A stretch of 64,000 nucleotides of DNA from an uncultured delta proteobacterium (GTDB taxonomy: Bacteria > Myxococcota_A > UBA9160 > JAFDET01), in assembly GCA_947259215.1 (NCBI GenBank), contig CAMYLJ010000006.1, positions 1 to 64,000 on the forward strand, in the 5' to 3' direction. Below are positions 18,301 through 64,000 of the stretch, piece by piece. Every line of letters starts with the position of its first letter. Position 1 is the first letter of the stretch. The position numbers and the translations under genes were made by a program. Under the pieces are notes generated by a model. The model was given only the letters and a program-made list of their open reading frames with translations. It searched no databases and was not told where the DNA came from.

Positions 18301-19727
18301 GGGCGGGGGATCTGGTCGCCTGCCGCCGCGAGTACGACGCGGCCCAGGAGCTGGTCGCCCGCTCCCAGAACGCGCGCGCGGTCTACTGGCACCACCTGCA
18401 CAGGGCCAGCTTGAAGCTGGTGGAGGGCGACCTGGTCGCGGGGGAGCAGCTCGCCACCGCCGCCCTGGGCTTCGGGTCGCGGGTGTGGGCCGACGTGGCG
18501 CTCCAGATGTACGGCGCCCAGATGGCTTTCCTGCGCTACATGCAGGGCCGGCTCGACGAGCTCGTCGGCGTCCTGGAGGCCGGTGCCGCACAGCACCCCC
18601 AGCCCGCCTGGCGCGCCGGGGCCGCCTGGGCACAGGCGGTCGTGGGCGACCGGGAGGCCGCGCGCCGGCACCTGGATCCCTTCGCCGCCGACGACTACGC
18701 GTCCATGCCCGTGGACGGGAACTGGCCGGCCGGCATCAGCCTGCTGGGCGCAGCCGTCCACGAGATCGGCGCCGAGGACCTGGCCCCGCGCCTCTACGAG
18801 CTGCTGTTGCCCTACGCGGAGCTCCAGGTCACGGCTGGCGCCGCGGCGTCCTCGCGCGGGCCCGGCCACTACGGGCTGGGGCAGCTGGCTCAGACGCTCG
18901 GCAGGCTCGACGACGCGGTCCGTCACCACGAGCGCGCCCTCGAGCTGAGCCACGCCTGGGGGGTGCGCCCCTTCGTGGCGGTCGTGAGCCTGGAGCTCGG
19001 CGAGGTGCTCCTCGAGCGCGAAGGCGAGGGCGACCACGAGCGTGCCCTCCAGCTCCTGAACGACGGCATGGACGCAGCGCGCGACATGGGGTCGGCCCAC
19101 TTCGTGGAGCGGGCCCTGGCCCTGAAGCTCGAGGCCCAGGGGATCGACGCGTCCCACACCAACCGCTCCATCTACTCGGTGGCGCGGTCGGTGCAATCGA
19201 AGCGGCCGGATTTCCACAAACACGCCGCGGCCGACGGCAGCGTGACCCTGATGTTCAGCGACATGGAGGGCTTCACCGCCATGACCGAGCGCCTGGGGGA
19301 CGAGGCGGCGCTCCAGGTGGTCCAGGCCCACAACGGCATCCTGCGCCAGCAGGTGAAGGCCCACGGCGGGCGCGAGGTCGACTCCCAGGGCGACGGGTTC
19401 CTGCTGGCGTTCCCGTCACCCCGGGCGGGGGTCGAGGCCGCGGTGGCGATGCAGCGCGCCTTCGCCGCCCACGCGGAGCAGCACCCGGAAGAGCCCATCC
19501 GCATCGGCATGCACACGGGCCAGGCCATTCGCGACGCCGACAAGTTCTTCGGGCGCACCGTGATCATGGCCTGCCGCATCGCCGACCAGGCCCAGGCCAC
19601 CGAGATCCTGGTCTCCGACGATGTGCGGCAGGCGGTCGGCGACGACTTCACGTTGGGCACGGCCCGGGAGCTCACCCTGAAGGGCTTCTCCGGGACCCAT
19701 CCCGCGCATCCGCTGAGCTGGGCCTGA
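15318..19727 (+). CDS. Zinc-ribbon / Ser-Thr kinase-like / AAA ATPase / TPR / class III cyclase fusion
   Basis: 1469 residues. Order: double zinc ribbon (C3, C6, C17, C20; C28, C31, C42, C45); kinase domain (about 82-345) with HRD D208 and DFG D226; STAND-type AAA ATPase with Walker A GEPGIGKT (398-405) and Walker B ILDDLHWAD near 513-523; long TPR region (about 790-1260); class III nucleotide cyclase (about 1305-1469) with metal aspartates D1315 (FSDMEG) and D1359 (GDGF), 44 residues apart. In the kinase, the invariant VAIK lysine is Ser (DVAVSVLK), with Lys three residues later; the glycine loop is also odd (GEGGKKRVY). No membrane helix is seen. GTG start with GGAGG at good spacing. Probably a large signal integrator making a cyclic nucleotide; ligand unknown. 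Confidence 0.93.
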   Translation: MQCPSCDRQNSDDAAFCNGCGTRLAHACVGCGRSNAPDAAFCNGCGQPLGEAAATPAPQRAAPVAPSPPATSVSGISFAAGRYRVERVLGEGGKKRVYLAHDTRLGRDVAVSVLKTEGLDESAQLRVRHEAEAMGRLGDHPNVVTVFDIGEEEGQLFIVSEFMAGGDVETRLAGAKDGRLGIQEAMRIVAEMCRALEHAHANGIVHRDIKPGNVWLRQDGTAGLGDFGLALFEDRTRITQEGMMVGTVAYMPPEQALGRKPEAGSDLYALGATLYEMLTGKPPFAGDDAVAIISQHINTAPVSPSWHNAEVPKPLDELTLRLLAKDPTQRPADAAAARAALEAIQNASSVSAVPDVAANPLDRLASGVFVGREHEVTELREGVDTMLSGQGRILLLVGEPGIGKTRTSEELATYASLRGAQVLWGRCYEGEGAPTYWPWVQLVRNYVRERDPAALLSEMAGGAGAIAEVVSEVRERLPGLQPAAALGAEEARFRLFDSLTSFFRNAARERPLVFILDDLHWADKPSLLLLQFLARELAGTRILVIGTYRDVELGRRHPLAETLAELSQLDLSKRVLLRGLQQEDVSRFIELSAGGSAAESLVSAVYRETEGNPFFVNEVVRLLASENRLGDAKTSGTWSVEIPQGIREAVGRRLNHLSEDCNDVLTVASVIGREFDLALLERVVDVDGDRLIETLEEALAARVIQEMPDAPGRYRFSHALVRETLHDELNTTRRVRLHRRIGEELEALHADHLESQLAALAYHFAEGAHAGGDPAKAVDYSTRAGRRATELLAHEDAIPHYERALQMLDLQAGADDQQRCDLLTALAWAQHYGGEVEKAVEALEQAIPIARKLEDPHRFALIAASFGFAEFARNMGEPHAGAVALLEEALAWLPGDEDSLHRIQVLSQLGNQLVLGETAPRALACYEEALEVARRVGEPGHLMEACFALIFGLWRPEDLERRNVVAEEVLRFAEEDGQADKIILARNQRFNHFFWAGDLVACRREYDAAQELVARSQNARAVYWHHLHRASLKLVEGDLVAGEQLATAALGFGSRVWADVALQMYGAQMAFLRYMQGRLDELVGVLEAGAAQHPQPAWRAGAAWAQAVVGDREAARRHLDPFAADDYASMPVDGNWPAGISLLGAAVHEIGAEDLAPRLYELLLPYAELQVTAGAAASSRGPGHYGLGQLAQTLGRLDDAVRHHERALELSHAWGVRPFVAVVSLELGEVLLEREGEGDHERALQLLNDGMDAARDMGSAHFVERALALKLEAQGIDASHTNRSIYSVARSVQSKRPDFHKHAAADGSVTLMFSDMEGFTAMTERLGDEAALQVVQAHNGILRQQVKAHGGREVDSQGDGFLLAFPSPRAGVEAAVAMQRAFAAHAEQHPEEPIRIGMHTGQAIRDADKFFGRTVIMACRIADQAQATEILVSDDVRQAVGDDFTLGTARELTLKGFSGTHPAHPLSWA

Positions 19728-46489: not shown

Positions 46490-49400
46490 GACAGCTCGGC
46501 CAGCAACGCCGCGGCTTCGACGAGATCCGGAGTGTCGAACCCCTCGTGCAGCGCACCATAGGCGCCTTCGAGCACGTCCCGTGCGCGCTGGGGCTCTTTC
46601 TGCCGCCAGAGGCGGGCGAGGCTGATCGCGGCGCGGAGCTCCGTCATCCTGGCCTCCTGGCTGCGGGCAACGTCGAGCGCGTCGAGGAGACATCGCTCCG
46701 CCTCCACGGGGTCGCCGGACGATGCTGCCAGCAGGAGACACCCCTTCACCCGCGACACCTCGCCATCGAAGAAGACATCCTCGTGCTCTCCGACGAGCTG
46801 GAGGCCGCCAACCAGGATGGCCAGTCCCTCATCGGCCCGTCCCGCCCGGAGGTGGGCCTCGGCCAGCATCGCCAGGCAGAAGGGACCTCCCAGTCCGGCG
46901 CCGGTCTGCTGGAAGCTCGCGATGCCCGCGAGGCTGCGATCGATGCCCTCCTGCTGCTTTCCCTGCTCGGCCTGTGCCAACCCCTGAAAGATCATCCCGA
47001 AGCCCTGCCAGAAGGGCAGCTGCTGCTCCGTGCTGAAGGCGACCGTCTCGTCGGCGAAGGCCTGGGTCAGGTCCGGCTCCCTGCGCACGTGATGGAGCGC
47101 CGCTGCGAAAGCGAGCGCGAGGCCGAGGCTGTTGGCATGTCCGAGCGCCCGGGCGCGTTCCAGCGATCGGTTGCAGCGCTGCACGGCCCGGTCGGGGTAG
47201 CCCAGGAACCAGAGCACCTGGGCCGCATAGGTCTCGCAGACGACACCCGACTCCGTGCCGTACACCAGCGCGAGCCCGCGCGCCCGATCCGCGTCGTAGC
47301 GGGAGAGCGCCTCCTCGAGCGACGGCAGCGCCGTCTTGAAGTCGCCGCGCCAGAAAGCCAGCGTCCCGAGGTTCTCGTGCACTTGCATGAAGAGCGCCTC
47401 GTCCTCGAGTCGCTCGGCCACGTGCAGGCGCTGGTGGGTGAGGTCGAGCGCCGTTTTCAGCTCGCCCCGCGCCTGGTGAAACAGGAAGATGCCGCTCAGC
47501 GCATTGTAGAGATGCGCGGTCTCGCCGACCTCGTTGCACAGCTCGCGGGCCCGGGCGTACACCTGCTCGACCTCGGGAGCCGTGAAGCCCTTGCTGGCGC
47601 CGAGGGCAACACCGAGACTGATGAGCAGCTCGAGCTCAGTGCGGGTGCGCTCCGGCCCGGCGTCCAGCCGGGCGACCAGCTCGAGGGCCCGCGCCAGGTG
47701 GCTCGCGGCCTCCGCGTTCGCCGAGCGCTCGATGGCCCGACGGCCGGCGAGCTGGTAGTAGGTGACCGCGTCGCGGGTGAGGCCGGCCCCCGCCCAGTGG
47801 TGGCCCAGCAGCTCGGGCTGCGTCTCCACGACCTGCGGAAAGCTCGCCTTCAGGGTCTCGGCGATCTGCCGGTGGTAGTCGCGGCGCTTGTTCCGGAGCA
47901 GCGCCTCGTAGGCGGCCTCCTGGATCAGGGCGTGCTTGAATACGTAGTTCGCGTGCGGCGGCGCCCCTCTGGCATTCAGCACCTCGGCGTCCACCAGGCG
48001 GGCGAGCTCGTCCTGCAGGGTGGCCTCCTCGAGGCGCGCGACGCTGCGGATCAGCTCGTAGGAGAAAGCGCGCCCGATCGTGGCGCCGAGCTGGACCACC
48101 TCCTTCAGGTGGGACAGGTGATCCAGCCGCGCCATGAGGGACTCTTGCAGGGTGGCGGGAATCTCCAGCGCGGCGAGGGGCCCCGCCAGCTCGTAGCGCC
48201 CATCGCGCTCCTGGAGCTGGCCGGATTCCAGCATCGTCTTGGTCAGCTCCTCGAGATAGAGCGGCACACCGTCGGCCCTGCTGGACAGCTCGCGAACGAC
48301 CTCAGGAGGCAGCTCGCGTCCTCCCGCGACCGCGCGCACCACCTCGCTGGCCTCCTCGATCGTGAGACGGTTGAGCTCGATCTCGGTCGGGGAGATCTCG
48401 CGCCACGTCGGGACGAAGCTCGGACGGAAGACCAGGACGACGAGGATCCGCGCCACCGGGGCCTGCTCCAGGAGCAGGCCCAGGAACTCGAGCGAGGACG
48501 GGTCGATCCAGTGCAGGTCTTCGACGATCAGGAGGAGCGGCTGCTCCCGGGTCATTTCGAGCAGGATCGCGGCGAGCGCTTCCATGGTGCGCTGTCTCTG
48601 CCGCTGCGGGGTCACGTTGAGCGGGGGCCGTCCGTCCGGCAACGGCACGGACAGGAGCGCGGCGATCAGCGGAACGGCGTCCGGGATCTCGGAGGCGTAG
48701 GGCGCCAGGGCCTGCTCGATCCGCTCGAATCGCTCTCCGGCATCCTCCACGCGCTCCAGCTCCGCGACCCGCCGCAGCAGGTCGATGGCCGGATAGAGCG
48801 CGCTGTTCTCGTGGTGGGGCGAGCAGCGGCACTCGAGGCTCCGGTGGGCCTCTTTCTCCAGGTGCTCCTTGAGATCCTGCATCAAGCGGGATTTGCCGAT
48901 GCCCGCGTCGCCGCTCACGAACACGACCTGGCCCGCTCCGCCCCGGGCCTGCTCCCAGCGCTCGAACAGGACGCTGCGCTCCTTGTCGCGTCCGACGAGG
49001 GGCGTCAGGCCGGCGCTCATCGCGGCCTCGATCGCGCTCTGGGCTCCGCTCTCTCCCAGGACTTCGTAGACCCGGATCGGCGACGAGATGCCCTTCATGG
49101 GCGGCGTCCCGAGATCCCGGGTCTCGTAGAAGCCCCGGGTGAGGCGCTGCGTCGCGGCGCTGATCACGACCGTGTTGGGGGCTGCGATGCCCTGGATTCG
49201 CGCCGCGATGTTGACCGTGCTCCCGACCGGAAGCTGGCCGCGCTGGTCGCGGGAGCCCATCTCCCCGGTTACCACCAGGCCGCTGTGGATGCCGACGCGC
49301 ACCTTGTGGTCTCCGAGGTTCTCCGCCATGGCTCGCACGATCGCGAGCCCGGCACGAATGGCCGCGCCCGCGTCGTGCTCGCGGGCCACCGGATAGCCGA

Positions 49401-49761
49401 AGTAGGCGAGCACGCCGTCGCCGAGGTACTGGGCCAGGTTCCCACCGAGGTTCCCGATGGCCTGGGCGCAGGTCCGGTGGTAGTCGTGCACCAGCTCGCG
49501 CAGCTCTTCGGGATCGAGGCGCTCCGCGAGCACGGTCGAATCCACCAGATCGCAGAACATGACGGTCACCTGCCGCCGCTCCGCCACGGCCTGCGGCTCG
49601 GCGGGCGGGGCGGCCGCGGGCGCGCCACAGGCGCCGCAGAAACGCGCCCCGGGCGGGAGCGGTGCGGCGCACGATCGGCACGCCAGCGTCAGGCGCTGTC
49701 CGCACTGCTCGCAGAAGAGGGCGGAATCGCGGTTCTCGGTCTGGCAGGAGCTGCAGCGCAT
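46486..49761 (-). CDS. Zinc-ribbon / class III cyclase / AAA ATPase / TPR protein
   Basis: 1091 residues. Double zinc ribbon with cysteines at 3, 6, 17, 20, 28, 31, 42 and 45, the same positions as in the protein at 15318. Class III cyclase domain (about 60-225): metal aspartates D71 (FCDLVDST) and D115 (YLGDGVLAYFGYP), 44 residues apart. AAA/STAND ATPase with Walker A GDAGIGKSRLM and Walker B LLIVEDLHWIDPSS, then TPR helices to the C-terminus. This domain order is the common adenylate/guanylate cyclase-AAA type of Deltaproteobacteria and Binatota. It probably makes a cyclic nucleotide in response to a protein partner; specificity cannot be read because the usual lysine before GDG is Gln/Tyr-like (AQYLGDG). 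Confidence 0.92.
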   Translation of the reverse strand: MRCSSCQTENRDSALFCEQCGQRLTLACRSCAAPLPPGARFCGACGAPAAAPPAEPQAVAERRQVTVMFCDLVDSTVLAERLDPEELRELVHDYHRTCAQAIGNLGGNLAQYLGDGVLAYFGYPVAREHDAGAAIRAGLAIVRAMAENLGDHKVRVGIHSGLVVTGEMGSRDQRGQLPVGSTVNIAARIQGIAAPNTVVISAATQRLTRGFYETRDLGTPPMKGISSPIRVYEVLGESGAQSAIEAAMSAGLTPLVGRDKERSVLFERWEQARGGAGQVVFVSGDAGIGKSRLMQDLKEHLEKEAHRSLECRCSPHHENSALYPAIDLLRRVAELERVEDAGERFERIEQALAPYASEIPDAVPLIAALLSVPLPDGRPPLNVTPQRQRQRTMEALAAILLEMTREQPLLLIVEDLHWIDPSSLEFLGLLLEQAPVARILVVLVFRPSFVPTWREISPTEIELNRLTIEEASEVVRAVAGGRELPPEVVRELSSRADGVPLYLEELTKTMLESGQLQERDGRYELAGPLAALEIPATLQESLMARLDHLSHLKEVVQLGATIGRAFSYELIRSVARLEEATLQDELARLVDAEVLNARGAPPHANYVFKHALIQEAAYEALLRNKRRDYHRQIAETLKASFPQVVETQPELLGHHWAGAGLTRDAVTYYQLAGRRAIERSANAEAASHLARALELVARLDAGPERTRTELELLISLGVALGASKGFTAPEVEQVYARARELCNEVGETAHLYNALSGIFLFHQARGELKTALDLTHQRLHVAERLEDEALFMQVHENLGTLAFWRGDFKTALPSLEEALSRYDADRARGLALVYGTESGVVCETYAAQVLWFLGYPDRAVQRCNRSLERARALGHANSLGLALAFAAALHHVRREPDLTQAFADETVAFSTEQQLPFWQGFGMIFQGLAQAEQGKQQEGIDRSLAGIASFQQTGAGLGGPFCLAMLAEAHLRAGRADEGLAILVGGLQLVGEHEDVFFDGEVSRVKGCLLLAASSGDPVEAERCLLDALDVARSQEARMTELRAAISLARLWRQKEPQRARDVLEGAYGALHEGFDTPDLVEAAALLAELS

Positions 49762-58058: not shown

Positions 58059-61000
58059 CTAGTTTCCGGACACGTTCACCGGCGCCAGCGACTCGAAGCA
58101 GCCCCCGCCGAGCTGGTCGTTCAGCCGTCCGGTGAGGAACAGCTCCACGGTCGTCGAGTCGCCTCCGATGCCCGGGGTGTCCGCGTGGACCACCAGGTCC
58201 TTGATCCCGTCGCCGTTCTTGTCCTGCAGGTGGCTCTTGTAGCGGTTCTTCTTGGCCAGATCGTGGGCCGGTCCACCCCCCGCGGTCGGGCACTGCTGGG
58301 TCGGCTGCGAGGCCGACAGGCGCAGCGTGGGCGCCTCGATGGCCTTGGGATCCTGGCCGCCCACCGAGGCCGTGTTCAGGTTCAGGCAGCCCGAGCCGTC
58401 GGCCGCGGCCGAGCCGAAGATCACGATCGGGGTCGAGCCGCTGGAGCCCGGATTCAAGGTCTCCGTCACCTCGAAGTTGACGCCGCAGGTGCAGCGGGCC
58501 GAGCAGGAGCTGCCGGGCGTGCCGTTGAGCGCGCCCTCGTCGCAGGTCTCCGCGTCCTGCACGATGCCGTCGCCGCAGGTGAACGTGTCGCAGGCGTCGC
58601 CGAAGGCGTCGGCCACGAGCAGCGGATCGAGCGCGTCCGTGTTGGTCTGGTCCGGGTTCGGGACCAGCGGGCAGTTGTCCACCACGTCCGGGATCTCGTC
58701 GCCGTCCGAGTCGGCCAGGGCCGAGAGCACCGTCACGCCGAGTTGGCAGGACTCGCCCTCGTCTTCGAGGCAGTCGAAGTCCTCGTCGCAGAGCTGACCG
58801 ATCCGCACGCTGGCGGGACTCGTGCCGCAGAACCCGGCGGGCGCGATCGTGTTCTCGCCGTCCTGGAACCCGTTGAAGAGGTTCGTCGTCTGGGCGAAGG
58901 ACGTGCCTTCGGTGAGGGAACCGGCTGCCGTGCAGCGACGCACGCTCAGGTCGCAGAGCCCGTCGAGGTTCACGTCGGTACCCGGGGAGCAGATCTCCTG
59001 GCTGGGCGGGAACCCGAAGTTCTCCTCGAACTCGTCCACGATGAAGAGCACCAGCTCCTCACCCACCTGGTAGTTGAACTGCGCGCAGGCCTGGCCCGGG
59101 CAGTCGGTCGTCGAGGACTCGCAGTCCCGCACGCTGCCGTCCGTTCGCAGCAGGAACATGGCCAGGTCGGCGAGGTCCAGGTCGCGGTTGCCGACGGAGC
59201 CGGCCGGCCCGCCCAGGTCGGTCTCCGGGGTCCGGAAGGCCACCAGGCAGGTGTCGGTGCGCCCGTCCCCGTCCAGGTCCTGGTCGGTGCCCAGCGCGAA
59301 GTCCTGGGCTTCCTGCAGCGCCACGGCCGCGAAGCCGGTGTCCAGGTCCGCCTCGTAGAGGATGCCGTCGGTCCCGAGCGCCACGGCGCGCGCGCCGCAC
59401 AGCCCGATCTCCTGGGCCGCGAGCGGAGCGCCGGCGACCGTCAGGTCGCTCAGCGTGTTTCCGCTACGGTCGCCGCAGGCCGCGACGCCGGCGTCGTCGA
59501 TGGCGCAGACGTAGTCCGCGTGCAGCGCCACGTCGCTGCCGGAGCGCCCGAAGGAGCGCACCGAGACGCCGCCGGGTCCGCCGGCCGGCTCCACCACCCG
59601 CACCGGCGAGCCCACCACCGCCACCGCGTCCCCGAAGACCGACCCGCTGGTGACCGGCTCGCCCGTGAGGGTCGGCGTGCAGGGCGTGACGCCGTCGCAG
59701 GTGGAGAGGTCCAGCACGCCGAGGAGGGCGCGCTCGTCGGCGGTCGGGTCCACGGGGCCCTCGAGGAAGACATTGGGCGCCGCGAGCCCGCCCACGCCGC
59801 CGAGTTGGCTGGCGAGGCTCGAGAGCCCGACGAAGTCGCCGCTCTGCCCGAGGCTGGGCTCCCCGGAGTCCGCGTCGGCGCCGGCCATGCGGGTGAGGGG
59901 CGTCACCGAGCCGGTCACCAGATCGGTGACCAGGATCTCGTCCACGGCCGAGAGGCCGCGCACCACGTAGGCCACGAAGCGCCCGTCGTCGGAGATGGAC
60001 GGATCGAACGCGCCGCAGGGCGAGGCCGTGCAGACGTTCTCGTTCGTCGGGAGCGCACTGGCGGTGCTCGTGTCCGCCGCGGCCACGTCCCGCACCAGGA
60101 CCTCGCTGTCCGGGTCCAGGGGCGGCGCCTCGAAGGTCACCTCGCCGCCGTTCGCGACCGACGGCGCTCCTCCCCCGAGGAGCAGGAAGCCGCCCGCCGC
60201 GCCGTCCGCCACGCTGACCGGGATCGGCGTGGGGACGCCGCCGCCGGCGAAGTCCACCAGGAAGACCTGGGACACACCGGCCACGTCCGCGGTGTAGACC
60301 ACCTTCGTCCCATCCGCCGAGACGTCCGGGTCCTGTCCGGCGCCGAGGTTCAGGAGATCTCCCGTACTCCGGTCCAGGCGCAGCACGTCTGTTCCCGACT
60401 CGAAGGCGACGATCCCGCCGTCGTCGGAGGCGCTGGGGTCGCCCGCCGGGCCCGCGAGACCCGCGCTCAGGTTGACGACGTCGCAGGTCGCCGGGTCGTA
60501 GGCGTAGACGTCCGGGGTGCCCCCGTCCGCGTCGTCGCCGGTCAGGTCCGAGGCGCTGTCGAAGAGCACCAGCTGGCCGGCCAGCGTGACGTCCGGGCTT
60601 CCGGACGGGTCATCGGTCCCCTGGGTCCGCTCGCTGCAGTCCGCGCGATCGCGGACGCTCACGAGCTCGGTCGTACCGGTCTCGGTGTCGCGCAGGTAGA
60701 CGCGGTCGATCCCGCCCTGGAGGGTGGGGTCGAAGCAGCCGGGGCCGCGGATGGTCTCCAGCTCCGCCTGGCCGCCGCTCTTGAACGACACGCCGATCTC
60801 CCCGGGCGGGACGTCGGGCGCGTTCAGGACCAGCGTGTAGGTCTTCGTGCCGCCCTTGCCCAGGCCCCGATCGTACTGGACCTCCTGGCCCGGGAAGTCG
60901 CAGCCGGAGCAGGCCGTGGGCTGGTCCACCACGCTCGCGTTGGGTCCCGTGGCCGCCAGGTCCACCAGCGCCACCAGGTCCGGCTCGCCGGCCGCGGTGT

Positions 61001-63047
61001 CGCACTGCTTCAGCTCCAGGTAGACGCGGCTCGGGGCCGGCCCCTGGCCGTTGTCGATGGCGACGTACTGGAAGACCGACTGGCCGTCCACGACCACCGG
61101 GAACTCGCCGCCGGGTCCCGTGACGGCCTGGATCGACGTCCCGCCGGAGGTCACGGCGCTGAGCTCGCCGGGGGGCGCCGGGATGAACAGGTTGTCGGCG
61201 CCGCTCGTGAAGGCCGCGTAGCGGCCGTCGGAGGAGAGGTCCGACTCGCCGGCAAAGAAGTTCCCGGGCACGCCCGTCGAGGACTGGTTCAGGAGCTGGT
61301 AGCCGTGGGGCTGCTGGTGCAGCGGCGAGTAGGCGAAGAAGAGGCGCCCATCGGAGAGCACCAGGCTCCGTCCGCCCCGGAAGCGCAGGTCCGGCAGCAC
61401 GGCCAGGTGGAAGTCGTCGGCCAGCAGGCTCACGGCCTCCGCCACGGCGGGATCGTCCGGCAGCGCGAAGACGCGCAGGTTCTGGTCGAGTCGTCCGTTG
61501 CCGTTCTGGTCGGCGGCCTGGGCCTCGCCCTGGGTGGTGCCGCCCAGCGGGTCGCTCAGGCCCTCGGCGAACTCCGACTCGAAGAAGGCCAGGTGGCGGT
61601 CCTCGGCGGCGATGGAGGGGACGACGAAGTCCTTGTCGCCCTCGGCGACACGCACGCGGGTCAGCCCGCGCCCGGTGAAGAAGGCGCCGAGGCGCTTGAT
61701 CAGCCCGCTCGTCCGGTCGAGCAGCTCGGCCACCGGGTCGTCGGCCGCCAGGTCCTTGTTGATCGGCTGGCCGGCGATGCGCTCGTCCTCGACCAGGGCG
61801 ACGGCTGCGTCGGTCAGGCTGCCGTCGAGCCAGGAGTTGAGCTCCACGGCCTGCTGGGCGGGGGCGTCGGCCACCGGGAGGTCCACGCTCTGGCCGGTCT
61901 GGGCGAAGCTGAACTCCTGGAGGTCGCAGGTCCCGGTGTCGCAGTCGGCATCGGCGGTGCAGGCGACGGCCGGCTCGTCCGTGCAGGCGCGGCGCGGGAA
62001 GAAGTGGACCGTGGCCTCGGCGTCGGCCATGCCCCAGAAGGCGATGATCGGGGGCGGGACGGTCTGGTCGACGAAGGGGTTGAAGGGCGGCGACAGCGGG
62101 AAGCCTTCGAAGGTGTAGGACGAGGGCTTCGCGGTGTAGACGGCCGGGGCGTCGTCGGTGAAGCCGTTGGCGACGGGGTCCGCGAGGCCGAGCCCGACCC
62201 GGCGGGGCTTCGGCTCTTCGAGCCCGCTGCCGAGGTCGACGCGGACGAGCTCGTCGTCGTAGATCATCGCGAAGAGCGCGTTCCCGTCGCGGTCGGTGGT
62301 GACGGGAACCGTGGTCTCGGTCGGACCCGGGGTCCCGCAGCCGGAGGTGCAGAGGGCGGTGAAGTCACTCTTGGGGATGCCCACGAGGCCGCTGAAGGGC
62401 CGGTTCACGTCTTCGGGCCGGACCCGGCAGCTGCCGTCGAGGCGGAAGAAGCTGCCGTGGCAGGACACGAAGCCGCTGCCGGCGTCCGCGCAGGCGGTGT
62501 CCCGAAGCTGGAACGCCACCGGGTTGGCGTCGCTGGCCAGCCGCACGCCGAGGCGCGCCGGGCCGTAGGCCGGCGGAGCGTCCGGGACGCGGAAGCGCAG
62601 CCGTCGCTCGAAGCCGCCCCCGGGCAGAGGGATCAGGGCGATCTCGCGCTCCGCCAGGGTGTCCACGCTGCAGTCGGCGTCGGCTCCGCAGAGGGTCGGG
62701 TCGGCGGCCAGTACCAGGACGGGGCCCGGGCCGGCTCCGTTCGCCGGCGTGTAGGCGATGGTGATGACGAAGGCGTCTACCGGCTGGTCGATGCCACCCA
62801 CCTGGAAGTCCGGAGCGGCGGAGCGGGTGTCGTGGTCGCAGACGGCCCCGACCACCTTGATGTCGTTGGTGAGGCCCGCCGTGAGGAACGGGGAAGTCAG
62901 GCTCCCCAGGAAGCTCCTATGGTCGAACCCCTCGGGGGCGATCACCGAGCAGTCGGCCTGGGCGGAACCCGCTGCCCCGCAGACGGCCACGAGGGCGGAG
63001 AGGGCGATGACCCTGGAACGGGGGTGGCGACGGTGACGAGGGATCAT
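58059..63047 (-). CDS. Very large secreted protein with WD/PD40-type repeats, TSP3 and Myxococcus Cys-rich repeat
   Basis: 1662 residues with a signal peptide (about 1-31, ending AQAD). Most of the chain consists of short beta repeats of the TolB/PD40 type, e.g. LSSDGRYAAFTSGADNLF, VSADGTKVVYTADVAG and ISDDGRFVAYVVRG, suggesting several propellers. Near residues 1455-1490 is a thrombospondin type 3-like calcium repeat (DSDGDEIPDVVDNCPLV), followed near 1490-1520 by a Myxococcus cysteine-rich repeat (CGDGIVQDAETCDEG...CSARC). The tail (about 140 residues) is unassigned. It is a surface or extracellular protein of unknown binding role. A long open frame lies on the other strand but has no such motifs. 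ATG at 63047, with GGGAGAAA upstream. Confidence 0.85.
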   Translation of the reverse strand: MIPRHRRHPRSRVIALSALVAVCGAAGSAQADCSVIAPEGFDHRSFLGSLTSPFLTAGLTNDIKVVGAVCDHDTRSAAPDFQVGGIDQPVDAFVITIAYTPANGAGPGPVLVLAADPTLCGADADCSVDTLAEREIALIPLPGGGFERRLRFRVPDAPPAYGPARLGVRLASDANPVAFQLRDTACADAGSGFVSCHGSFFRLDGSCRVRPEDVNRPFSGLVGIPKSDFTALCTSGCGTPGPTETTVPVTTDRDGNALFAMIYDDELVRVDLGSGLEEPKPRRVGLGLADPVANGFTDDAPAVYTAKPSSYTFEGFPLSPPFNPFVDQTVPPPIIAFWGMADAEATVHFFPRRACTDEPAVACTADADCDTGTCDLQEFSFAQTGQSVDLPVADAPAQQAVELNSWLDGSLTDAAVALVEDERIAGQPINKDLAADDPVAELLDRTSGLIKRLGAFFTGRGLTRVRVAEGDKDFVVPSIAAEDRHLAFFESEFAEGLSDPLGGTTQGEAQAADQNGNGRLDQNLRVFALPDDPAVAEAVSLLADDFHLAVLPDLRFRGGRSLVLSDGRLFFAYSPLHQQPHGYQLLNQSSTGVPGNFFAGESDLSSDGRYAAFTSGADNLFIPAPPGELSAVTSGGTSIQAVTGPGGEFPVVVDGQSVFQYVAIDNGQGPAPSRVYLELKQCDTAAGEPDLVALVDLAATGPNASVVDQPTACSGCDFPGQEVQYDRGLGKGGTKTYTLVLNAPDVPPGEIGVSFKSGGQAELETIRGPGCFDPTLQGGIDRVYLRDTETGTTELVSVRDRADCSERTQGTDDPSGSPDVTLAGQLVLFDSASDLTGDDADGGTPDVYAYDPATCDVVNLSAGLAGPAGDPSASDDGGIVAFESGTDVLRLDRSTGDLLNLGAGQDPDVSADGTKVVYTADVAGVSQVFLVDFAGGGVPTPIPVSVADGAAGGFLLLGGGAPSVANGGEVTFEAPPLDPDSEVLVRDVAAADTSTASALPTNENVCTASPCGAFDPSISDDGRFVAYVVRGLSAVDEILVTDLVTGSVTPLTRMAGADADSGEPSLGQSGDFVGLSSLASQLGGVGGLAAPNVFLEGPVDPTADERALLGVLDLSTCDGVTPCTPTLTGEPVTSGSVFGDAVAVVGSPVRVVEPAGGPGGVSVRSFGRSGSDVALHADYVCAIDDAGVAACGDRSGNTLSDLTVAGAPLAAQEIGLCGARAVALGTDGILYEADLDTGFAAVALQEAQDFALGTDQDLDGDGRTDTCLVAFRTPETDLGGPAGSVGNRDLDLADLAMFLLRTDGSVRDCESSTTDCPGQACAQFNYQVGEELVLFIVDEFEENFGFPPSQEICSPGTDVNLDGLCDLSVRRCTAAGSLTEGTSFAQTTNLFNGFQDGENTIAPAGFCGTSPASVRIGQLCDEDFDCLEDEGESCQLGVTVLSALADSDGDEIPDVVDNCPLVPNPDQTNTDALDPLLVADAFGDACDTFTCGDGIVQDAETCDEGALNGTPGSSCSARCTCGVNFEVTETLNPGSSGSTPIVIFGSAAADGSGCLNLNTASVGGQDPKAIEAPTLRLSASQPTQQCPTAGGGPAHDLAKKNRYKSHLQDKNGDGIKDLVVHADTPGIGGDSTTVELFLTGRLNDQLGGGCFESLAPVNVSGN

Positions 63048-63108
63048 GCTTTCTCCCGTACGCCGCGGGACGCGCTGGCTCGCCGCGACAAAAAGACTTG
63101 CAGGGTTA

Positions 63109-63153
63109 TCTCTACACGATTCCTACGCCCTCAGGGTGTGAACCGTTTCACAC
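63109..63153 (-). promoter_or_regulatory. Perfect CRP-type site and putative -10 of the large secreted gene
   Basis: GTGTGAACCGTTTCACAC (63136-63153) contains TGTGA-N6-TCACA exactly, the full consensus of CRP/FNR-family regulators that bind cyclic nucleotides. On the minus strand TAGAGA (63114-63109) is a possible -10. It would put the site centre about 42 bases upstream of the start, the usual class II position. The minus-strand gene starts at 63047. The lnt-like gene beyond ends at 63176, so the site lies only in the secreted gene's promoter. Confidence 0.6.
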
Positions 63154-63175: not shown

Positions 63176-64000
63176 TCACGAGAAGCGCCGGCGGCCGGCC
63201 GCCAGGCCCGCCACCGCGGCCAGGACGCAGAGGCCGGCGAAGGCGTCTCCCCAGCGTGCGTAGGGCGTCTGACGGCTCTCCCGGCGCACCAGTCCGAGCA
63301 GCACACTTCGCGTGAAGGGGTCGGTTCGCACCGCGGTCCGGCCCCAGGGATCCACGATCGCGGACGGCCCCGAGGTGGAGGCGCGCAGGAGGTAGCGGCG
63401 CTGCTCGATGGCCCGGAGCGAAACCACCGCGAGCATGTGCTCCGCGAACGCCTGGCCGGCGATCCAGTTGTCATTGGAGGGGCTCACGAGCAGCTCCGCC
63501 CCGGCTCGCACCCGGGCGCGCGCCACCTCGGGCAGCATGGCTTCGTTGCAGATCAGGAATCCGACGCGTCCCAGGCGGGTCTCGACCGGCGCCGGATCGG
63601 GGGCGCCGTGGTGGAAGGTCCGCGCGCCTTCGAGCCTGCGCTGCATCAGATCGAGGCTCGCCAGCGGGAAGTACTCCGAGAACGGGACGAGGTACTCCTT
63701 GTCGTAGCGGGCGCGGATCGATCCGTCGGGCGAGAGCGCGAAGATGCTGTTGAAGAACGGGGGCTGCGTGTCGCCATCACCGCTGGGGCCCCCCGCCAGC
63801 AGCTCGACGTCTCCCTCCTGGAGGACGCTCGCGACCGTGCGCCGGTACTCCGCTTCCGTCTCGAGGAAGAAGGTCATGGCGCCCTCGGGCCAGACCACGA
63901 CGCGGGGGGCGCCCTCGCCGAGGGCGCGCCGGGTCAGTGCGAGGTACACGTCCAGGTTCTTGCCGTAGTGGTCGGAGCGCCAGCGCCGGCCGAGCGCCAC
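63176..64000 (-). CDS. lnt: Second apolipoprotein N-acyltransferase-like protein, 3' part
   Basis: 275 codons to the window edge; the start lies outside. The visible part is the nitrilase domain and a final helix of an Lnt-type protein. Catalytic residues are in sight: Glu in VVWPEGA, Lys in RYDKEYLVPF, and Cys in FLICNEAML, with the W-like SPSNDNWI loop. It differs clearly from the Lnt at 13506. The final VLAAVAGLAAGRRR is a membrane anchor. A second copy may act on particular lipoproteins or be a divergent amidase. Confidence 0.8.
   Translation of the reverse strand: MALGRRWRSDHYGKNLDVYLALTRRALGEGAPRVVVWPEGAMTFFLETEAEYRRTVASVLQEGDVELLAGGPSGDGDTQPPFFNSIFALSPDGSIRARYDKEYLVPFSEYFPLASLDLMQRRLEGARTFHHGAPDPAPVETRLGRVGFLICNEAMLPEVARARVRAGAELLVSPSNDNWIAGQAFAEHMLAVVSLRAIEQRRYLLRASTSGPSAIVDPWGRTAVRTDPFTRSVLLGLVRRESRQTPYARWGDAFAGLCVLAAVAGLAAGRRRFS

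Follow-up and report, generated by a model that had tools for sequence, protein, structure and literature searches.

The window analysed here (the whole 64-kb stretch, positions 1–64000 of contig C6) ends in two neighbouring genes on the minus strand. The first (58059–63047, minus strand) is an open reading frame for a giant, putatively secreted protein of 1662 amino acids, with a signal peptide recognized by eye, propeller-like PD40 repeats scoring above cut-off, TSP type 3 repeats (TSP_3) scoring below cut-off and cysteine-rich repeats; TIGR02232 scores just above cut-off. The signal peptide and the repeats form the entire basis for calling it a candidate surface protein. The second gene encodes Lnt (apolipoprotein N-acyltransferase; LNT_N and CN_hydrolase domains) and is cut by the window end (63176–64000, minus strand), the full gene spanning C6:63176–64732.

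A predicted palindromic operator in front of the giant gene

Between the Lnt stop codon (63176) and the ATG of the giant gene (63047), both genes lying on the minus strand, is the palindrome GTGTGAACCGTTTCACAC (63136–63153), in which GTGTGAA and TTCACAC enclose a CCGT spacer. Its centre is 97 bp from the ATG. We annotate it, with no strand assigned, as a predicted CRP-family operator with the core TGTGAA-N4-TTCACA (63137–63152), on the basis of its exact match and its conservation within the family. A sequence-only reading of this DNA had described TGTGA-N6-TCACA here, extended by G/C at both ends, and direct reading of the window agrees with it to the letter. The core is the sole exact TGTGAN6TCACA in the 64 kb.

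Searching the whole genome (5.70 Mb, 128 contigs) returned nine exact TGTGAN6TCACA sites and none for a reversed-pattern control, where base composition alone would give approximately one per 5.7 Mb; we therefore rejected chance occurrence in high-GC DNA. All nine sites read TGTGAA-N4-TTCACA, so that the true motif is longer than the TGTGA-N6-TCACA first proposed. With mismatches allowed, nine sites had none, four had one and 13 had two, compared with six altogether for the reversed pattern: exact sites and those with one mismatch exceed background, and those with two mismatches are largely background. None of the nine exact sites falls inside a predicted gene, although coding sequence makes up ∼89% of what was sampled (genes around the sites were called on the retrieved stretches with a purpose-built codon-usage caller). 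The motif is thus not common in coding regions, which was one way in which the initial proposal could have failed. Eight of the nine lie 42–142 bp upstream of a predicted start, and the ninth precedes a 40-amino-acid ORF with a good ribosome-binding site. This last ORF (L020:6829–6951, minus strand, contig C11), with its strong ribosome-binding site behind an exact operator, is possibly an unannotated small protein. On contig C6 itself, a second site with one mismatch (C6:73956–73971; L031:1501–1516) lies 70 bp upstream of a 170-amino-acid secreted protein, at a distance of 10.8 kb from the giant gene and with TAGCAT ∼30 nt from its centre.

We searched 97 relatives, among which the host's family comprises G000 (the host genome) to G003. 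A site was present upstream of the start in all five giant homologues of this family, with 0–2 mismatches: exact in G000, one mismatch in the 65% identical orthologue of G002, and exact, one and two mismatches in the homologues of G001 (about 32–34% identical). With the site as the anchor of the alignment, identity over 80 bases of flanking DNA was 20–36%, about chance level; the site itself retains 10–14 of its 16 bases between these homologues. When the giant upstream sequences were shuffled, sites with no more than one mismatch arose in ≤ 0.05% of trials, and sites with no more than two in 0.1–0.5%. The giant homologues of another family (G033 and G046) have no site in their upstream sequence, and control of the giant gene by the site is therefore seen only in the host's family. 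Separately, G033 (family f4) carries 26 exact sites, approximately threefold more than any other relative, and the regulon seems to be expanded there. By this comparative evidence, the palindrome would be a genuine site at which a CRP-family regulator switches on the giant gene.

Promoter geometry and direction of control

The proposed −10 element of the giant gene, TAGAGA (63109–63114, minus strand), starts 31 nt after the site centre and is a weak match to TATAAT; transcription would start near 63102. In the host's family, TAnnnT elements peak 29–31 nt from the site centre (nine of 25 distinct sites), and the same peak recurred in 16 of 71 sites from other families, which were examined after the class II hypothesis had been formed (Poisson P about 2e-14, an approximate value because some of these sites are related). 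TA-type −10 hexamers at 30–31 nt, with offsets counted by hand, were present in four of five giant promoters: TAGAGA at 31 in this window, TAGGAT at 30, TATACA at 30 and TAGGCT at 31. No −10 stands at this distance from the site of the G002 giant orthologue. A promoter scan of the region upstream of the giant gene found no −35/−10 pair and no −35 box. In CRP class II promoters the site is centred near −41.5, and a −10 element at 29–31 nt therefore puts the site centre near this position. The earlier suggestion of a class II placement relative to a plausible −10 thus gains from the set-wide peak, even with the weak hexamer in this window, and the supported prediction is that of an operator for a CRP-family protein, placed before the giant gene where a class II activator would act.

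Could the palindrome instead be a repressor operator, or act in some other geometry, such that CRP binding reduces expression of the giant gene, at any rate at some promoters? In favour of this, there is overlap between the site and the promoter region, several sites are flanked by divergent genes, and most sites have no TAnnnT at class II spacing (16 of 25 in the family and 55 of 71 in the independent set). However, class II activation predicts just the sharp −10 peak seen at 29–31 nt in two independent sets, four of five giant promoters have a TA-type −10 in the right place, and no −35 box was found. We regard repression or another geometry as unlikely.

A candidate regulator and its possible signal

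A profile search of the host genome placed HTH_Crp_2 above cut-off in three proteins, termed C16, C35 and C2; weaker PF13545 matches on contigs C96 and C3 were discarded, being of ArsR and GntR type by sequence. The C35 protein (236 amino acids; contig C35:10334–11041, minus strand) contains a cNMP-binding domain (PF00027, 80.7 bits) and a Crp-type HTH (PF13545, 59.4 bits), both over cut-off. Within its helix TSRESVNK, the stretch SRESVNK aligns with SRETVNK of Mycobacterium tuberculosis CRP, and its closest solved relatives are 3d0s (M. tuberculosis CRP; 4.3e-30) and GlxR entries such as 4byy (6e-28). A CRP/FNR homologue, without which the proposed site would have had no reader, is thus encoded in the genome and has the right recognition helix.

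The C35 gene follows a P450-like gene in an operon, and an exact site separates this operon from a DUF3604 gene that is read divergently. G001, G002 and G003 repeat this arrangement, again with an exact site and with other spacer letters (four of four family genomes; the G003 operon is split between two contigs). Across the 97 relatives, sites were present in 42 of the 56 genomes with a C35 orthologue (E at most 1e-50) vs. eight of the 41 without (Fisher 5.5e-8; within-family permutation, 1.5e-4). The exceptions are the eight genomes with sites and no close C35 orthologue, and 14 with an orthologue and no sites. Taken together, this makes the C35 protein the likely regulator, and its binding to the site is what we infer.

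A different protein might nevertheless bind the site: C2 or C16, both of CRP/FNR type, or a non-CRP factor such as Rex. The helix of C2 is CRP-like (TSRETVTR) and its cNMP pocket looks intact; the C2 gene adjoins a sensor kinase and an NtrC-type regulator. Yet proteins with C2-level similarity occur in nearly all relatives, even in those free of sites, whereas the C35 type tracks the sites, and only the C35 operon carries a site, none being found in the sequence retrieved around C2 and C16. As for Rex, the palindrome matches its half-site, the Rex operator being TTGTGAA-N4-TTCACAA, but we rejected this candidate because the Rex DNA-binding family PF06971 was not found in the host genome (assembly 95.7% complete). 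Altogether, a regulator other than C35 seems quite improbable. That the palindrome is the terminator hairpin of Lnt can be dismissed almost entirely: its place is indeed behind the Lnt stop codon and ahead of the next gene, which is read from the same strand, and its arms could pair into a stem of 7 bp, but the scan found no terminator-like site or T run there, the same palindrome occurs in divergent promoters elsewhere, and it is conserved against randomized flanks with a fixed −10 spacing.

We therefore return to the C35 protein, a CRP/FNR-family activator for which the palindrome would be the class II operator driving the giant gene; as a whole, this model is very probably right. Comparison of genomes provides its grounds, namely the site, its conservation, the −10 spacing and the co-occurrence with the CRP gene, from which we infer binding, activation and ligand. 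A C35 dimer would bind TGTGAA-N4-TTCACA ∼41.5 bp before the transcription start, in the place of a −35 box, and would recruit RNA polymerase to a promoter in which a −10 is present and a good −35 element is missing (class II activation), such that the giant gene, lying behind Lnt, would be transcribed from a promoter of its own. The C35 protein may also act on its own operon and on a small set of genes for secreted proteases and for enzymes of lipid or oxidative chemistry; in relatives, a gene for a class III cyclase may be among its targets too. As the activating signal, a cyclic nucleotide is most likely, which would come from one of the ∼30 class III cyclase domains that the genome encodes.

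Class III cyclase domains were matched 32 times in the genome, 31 times over cut-off. As had been noted from the letters alone, two are encoded in the window: one in a ∼1100-amino-acid protein (49069–49578, minus strand; PF00211, 75.5 bits), the other a cyclase-like domain at 19236–19685 on the plus strand (PF00211, 62.1 bits). Both look catalytically atypical: in the former the specifying Lys is replaced by Gln (alignment to CyaB), and in the latter this Lys is replaced by Asp and the transition-state Asn by Thr (alignment to Ma1120). Loss of Lys in both, and of Asn in one, weakens the case for either as the obvious signal source. A better candidate may lie just beyond the window (C6:64736–69610, minus strand), two genes upstream of the giant gene: a tandem class III cyclase that also has AAA domains and whose first cyclase domain retains the canonical residues (both Asp, Lys, Asn and Arg). 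The order cyclase, Lnt, giant in G000 is repeated with one extra gene in G002, and G033 and G046, of the other family, have cyclase, giant, Lnt. Furthermore, in G002 (L156:3637) and G003 (L162:1146) an exact site precedes a 50-amino-acid ORF and another class III cyclase. The link that this neighbourhood and these site-preceded operons make to cyclic nucleotides is circumstantial. The site-preceded G002/G003 cyclase has Glu at the Lys position; feedback, and perhaps cGMP, may be involved here.

The nucleotide pocket of the C35 protein was compared with those of M. tuberculosis CRP and Escherichia coli CRP. Aligned with the former, it keeps the equivalents of E72 and R82-T83, and R123 and T127 are replaced by Q and V; of the E. 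coli CRP cAMP contacts (E72, R82, S83, R123, T127 and S128), it has E, R, T and S equivalents. The phosphate pocket is thus kept and two base-contacting positions differ, and because of the Q and V cAMP is possibly not the ligand; several C35 orthologues retain the R123 equivalent. The protein also shares the GELS pocket motif of M. tuberculosis CRP and GlxR. As M. tuberculosis CRP illustrates, DNA binding by such proteins can depend little on cAMP (PMC4005916). The cyclic-nucleotide control envisaged in the sequence-only reading is plausible from the phosphate pocket, with the altered base contacts, the score below the curated cAMP-CRP cut-off and the atypical cyclases of the window counting against it. 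Given the rest of the model, we consider such control of the predicted regulator somewhat more probable than its absence.

The predicted regulon and its known counterparts

In the host, the exact sites precede genes for the giant protein, the P450-like/CRP operon, the DUF3604 protein, a HalD-like oxygenase, a fatty acyl reductase-type protein, an M6-like protease, a LolA-like protein and several unknowns. In family relatives, the targets include two subtilases, a lipoxygenase, a class III cyclase, and a P450 with an intact heme Cys, divergent from a PLP decarboxylase. The theme of this predicted regulon is secreted proteins together with lipid or oxidative chemistry.

The P450-like gene directly before the CRP gene (L023:5812–6966, minus strand, contig C35; orthologues in L067, L068 and L069) encodes a protein whose heme-ligating Cys is lost in all four orthologues (FGFGSHLALG, FGSGPRSFQS, FGSGPHAFVG and FSAGPRSILS), while the other P450 of the regulon retains FGFGLHSCVG. 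By these motifs, it is a predicted conserved pseudoenzyme paired with a transcription regulator. Cys-less P450 homologues of the EryCII type are known as glycosyltransferase activators (PMC3391682). The P450-like protein resembles EryCII and DesVIII in lacking the heme Cys and in having TIGR04515 as its best model; it differs from them in scoring far below the family cut-off (149 vs. 343 bits), in that no glycosyltransferase was called in the operon among the gene calls of the C35 stretch, and in being paired with a transcription regulator. One might imagine that the CRP signal is not plain cAMP, that the Cys-less protein is the ligand-binding or partner protein of the CRP, and that the circuit ties secretion of the giant protein and proteases to the sensing of small molecules or lipids, but we think this unlikely.

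The closest known counterparts of the C35 system are M. tuberculosis CRP (Rv3676) and Corynebacterium GlxR, with which it shares the helix SRE(T/S)VNK, the GELS motif and a TGTGAN6TCACA-like target; the M. tuberculosis CRP consensus resembles that of E. coli CRP (PMC4117774). M. tuberculosis, like the host, has many class III cyclases, 16 in number (PMC4005916). In contrast to M. tuberculosis CRP, half of whose sites are intragenic (PMC4117774), the host target has the fixed form TGTGAA-N4-TTCACA, with far fewer sites and none in genes, and the protein departs at the R123 and T127 equivalents. E. coli CRP class II promoters offer the same combination of a palindrome with a −10 that places the site centre near −41.5. 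The C35 protein differs from E. coli CRP in its regulon and its high-GC, non-enteric host, and it scores 96.5 bits against the cAMP-CRP equivalog model NF008732, vs. a cut-off of 266.

Collectively, these results describe, at the level of sequence, a regulon with its operator, promoter geometry and likely regulator for an uncultured Myxococcota-type lineage, and they place a family of giant secreted proteins under predicted CRP control. Two leads follow, the tandem class III cyclase whose place beside the giant gene is conserved and the heme-less P450-like protein encoded with the CRP. As the genomic evidence extends as far as the promoter class, the predicted circuit is directly testable.
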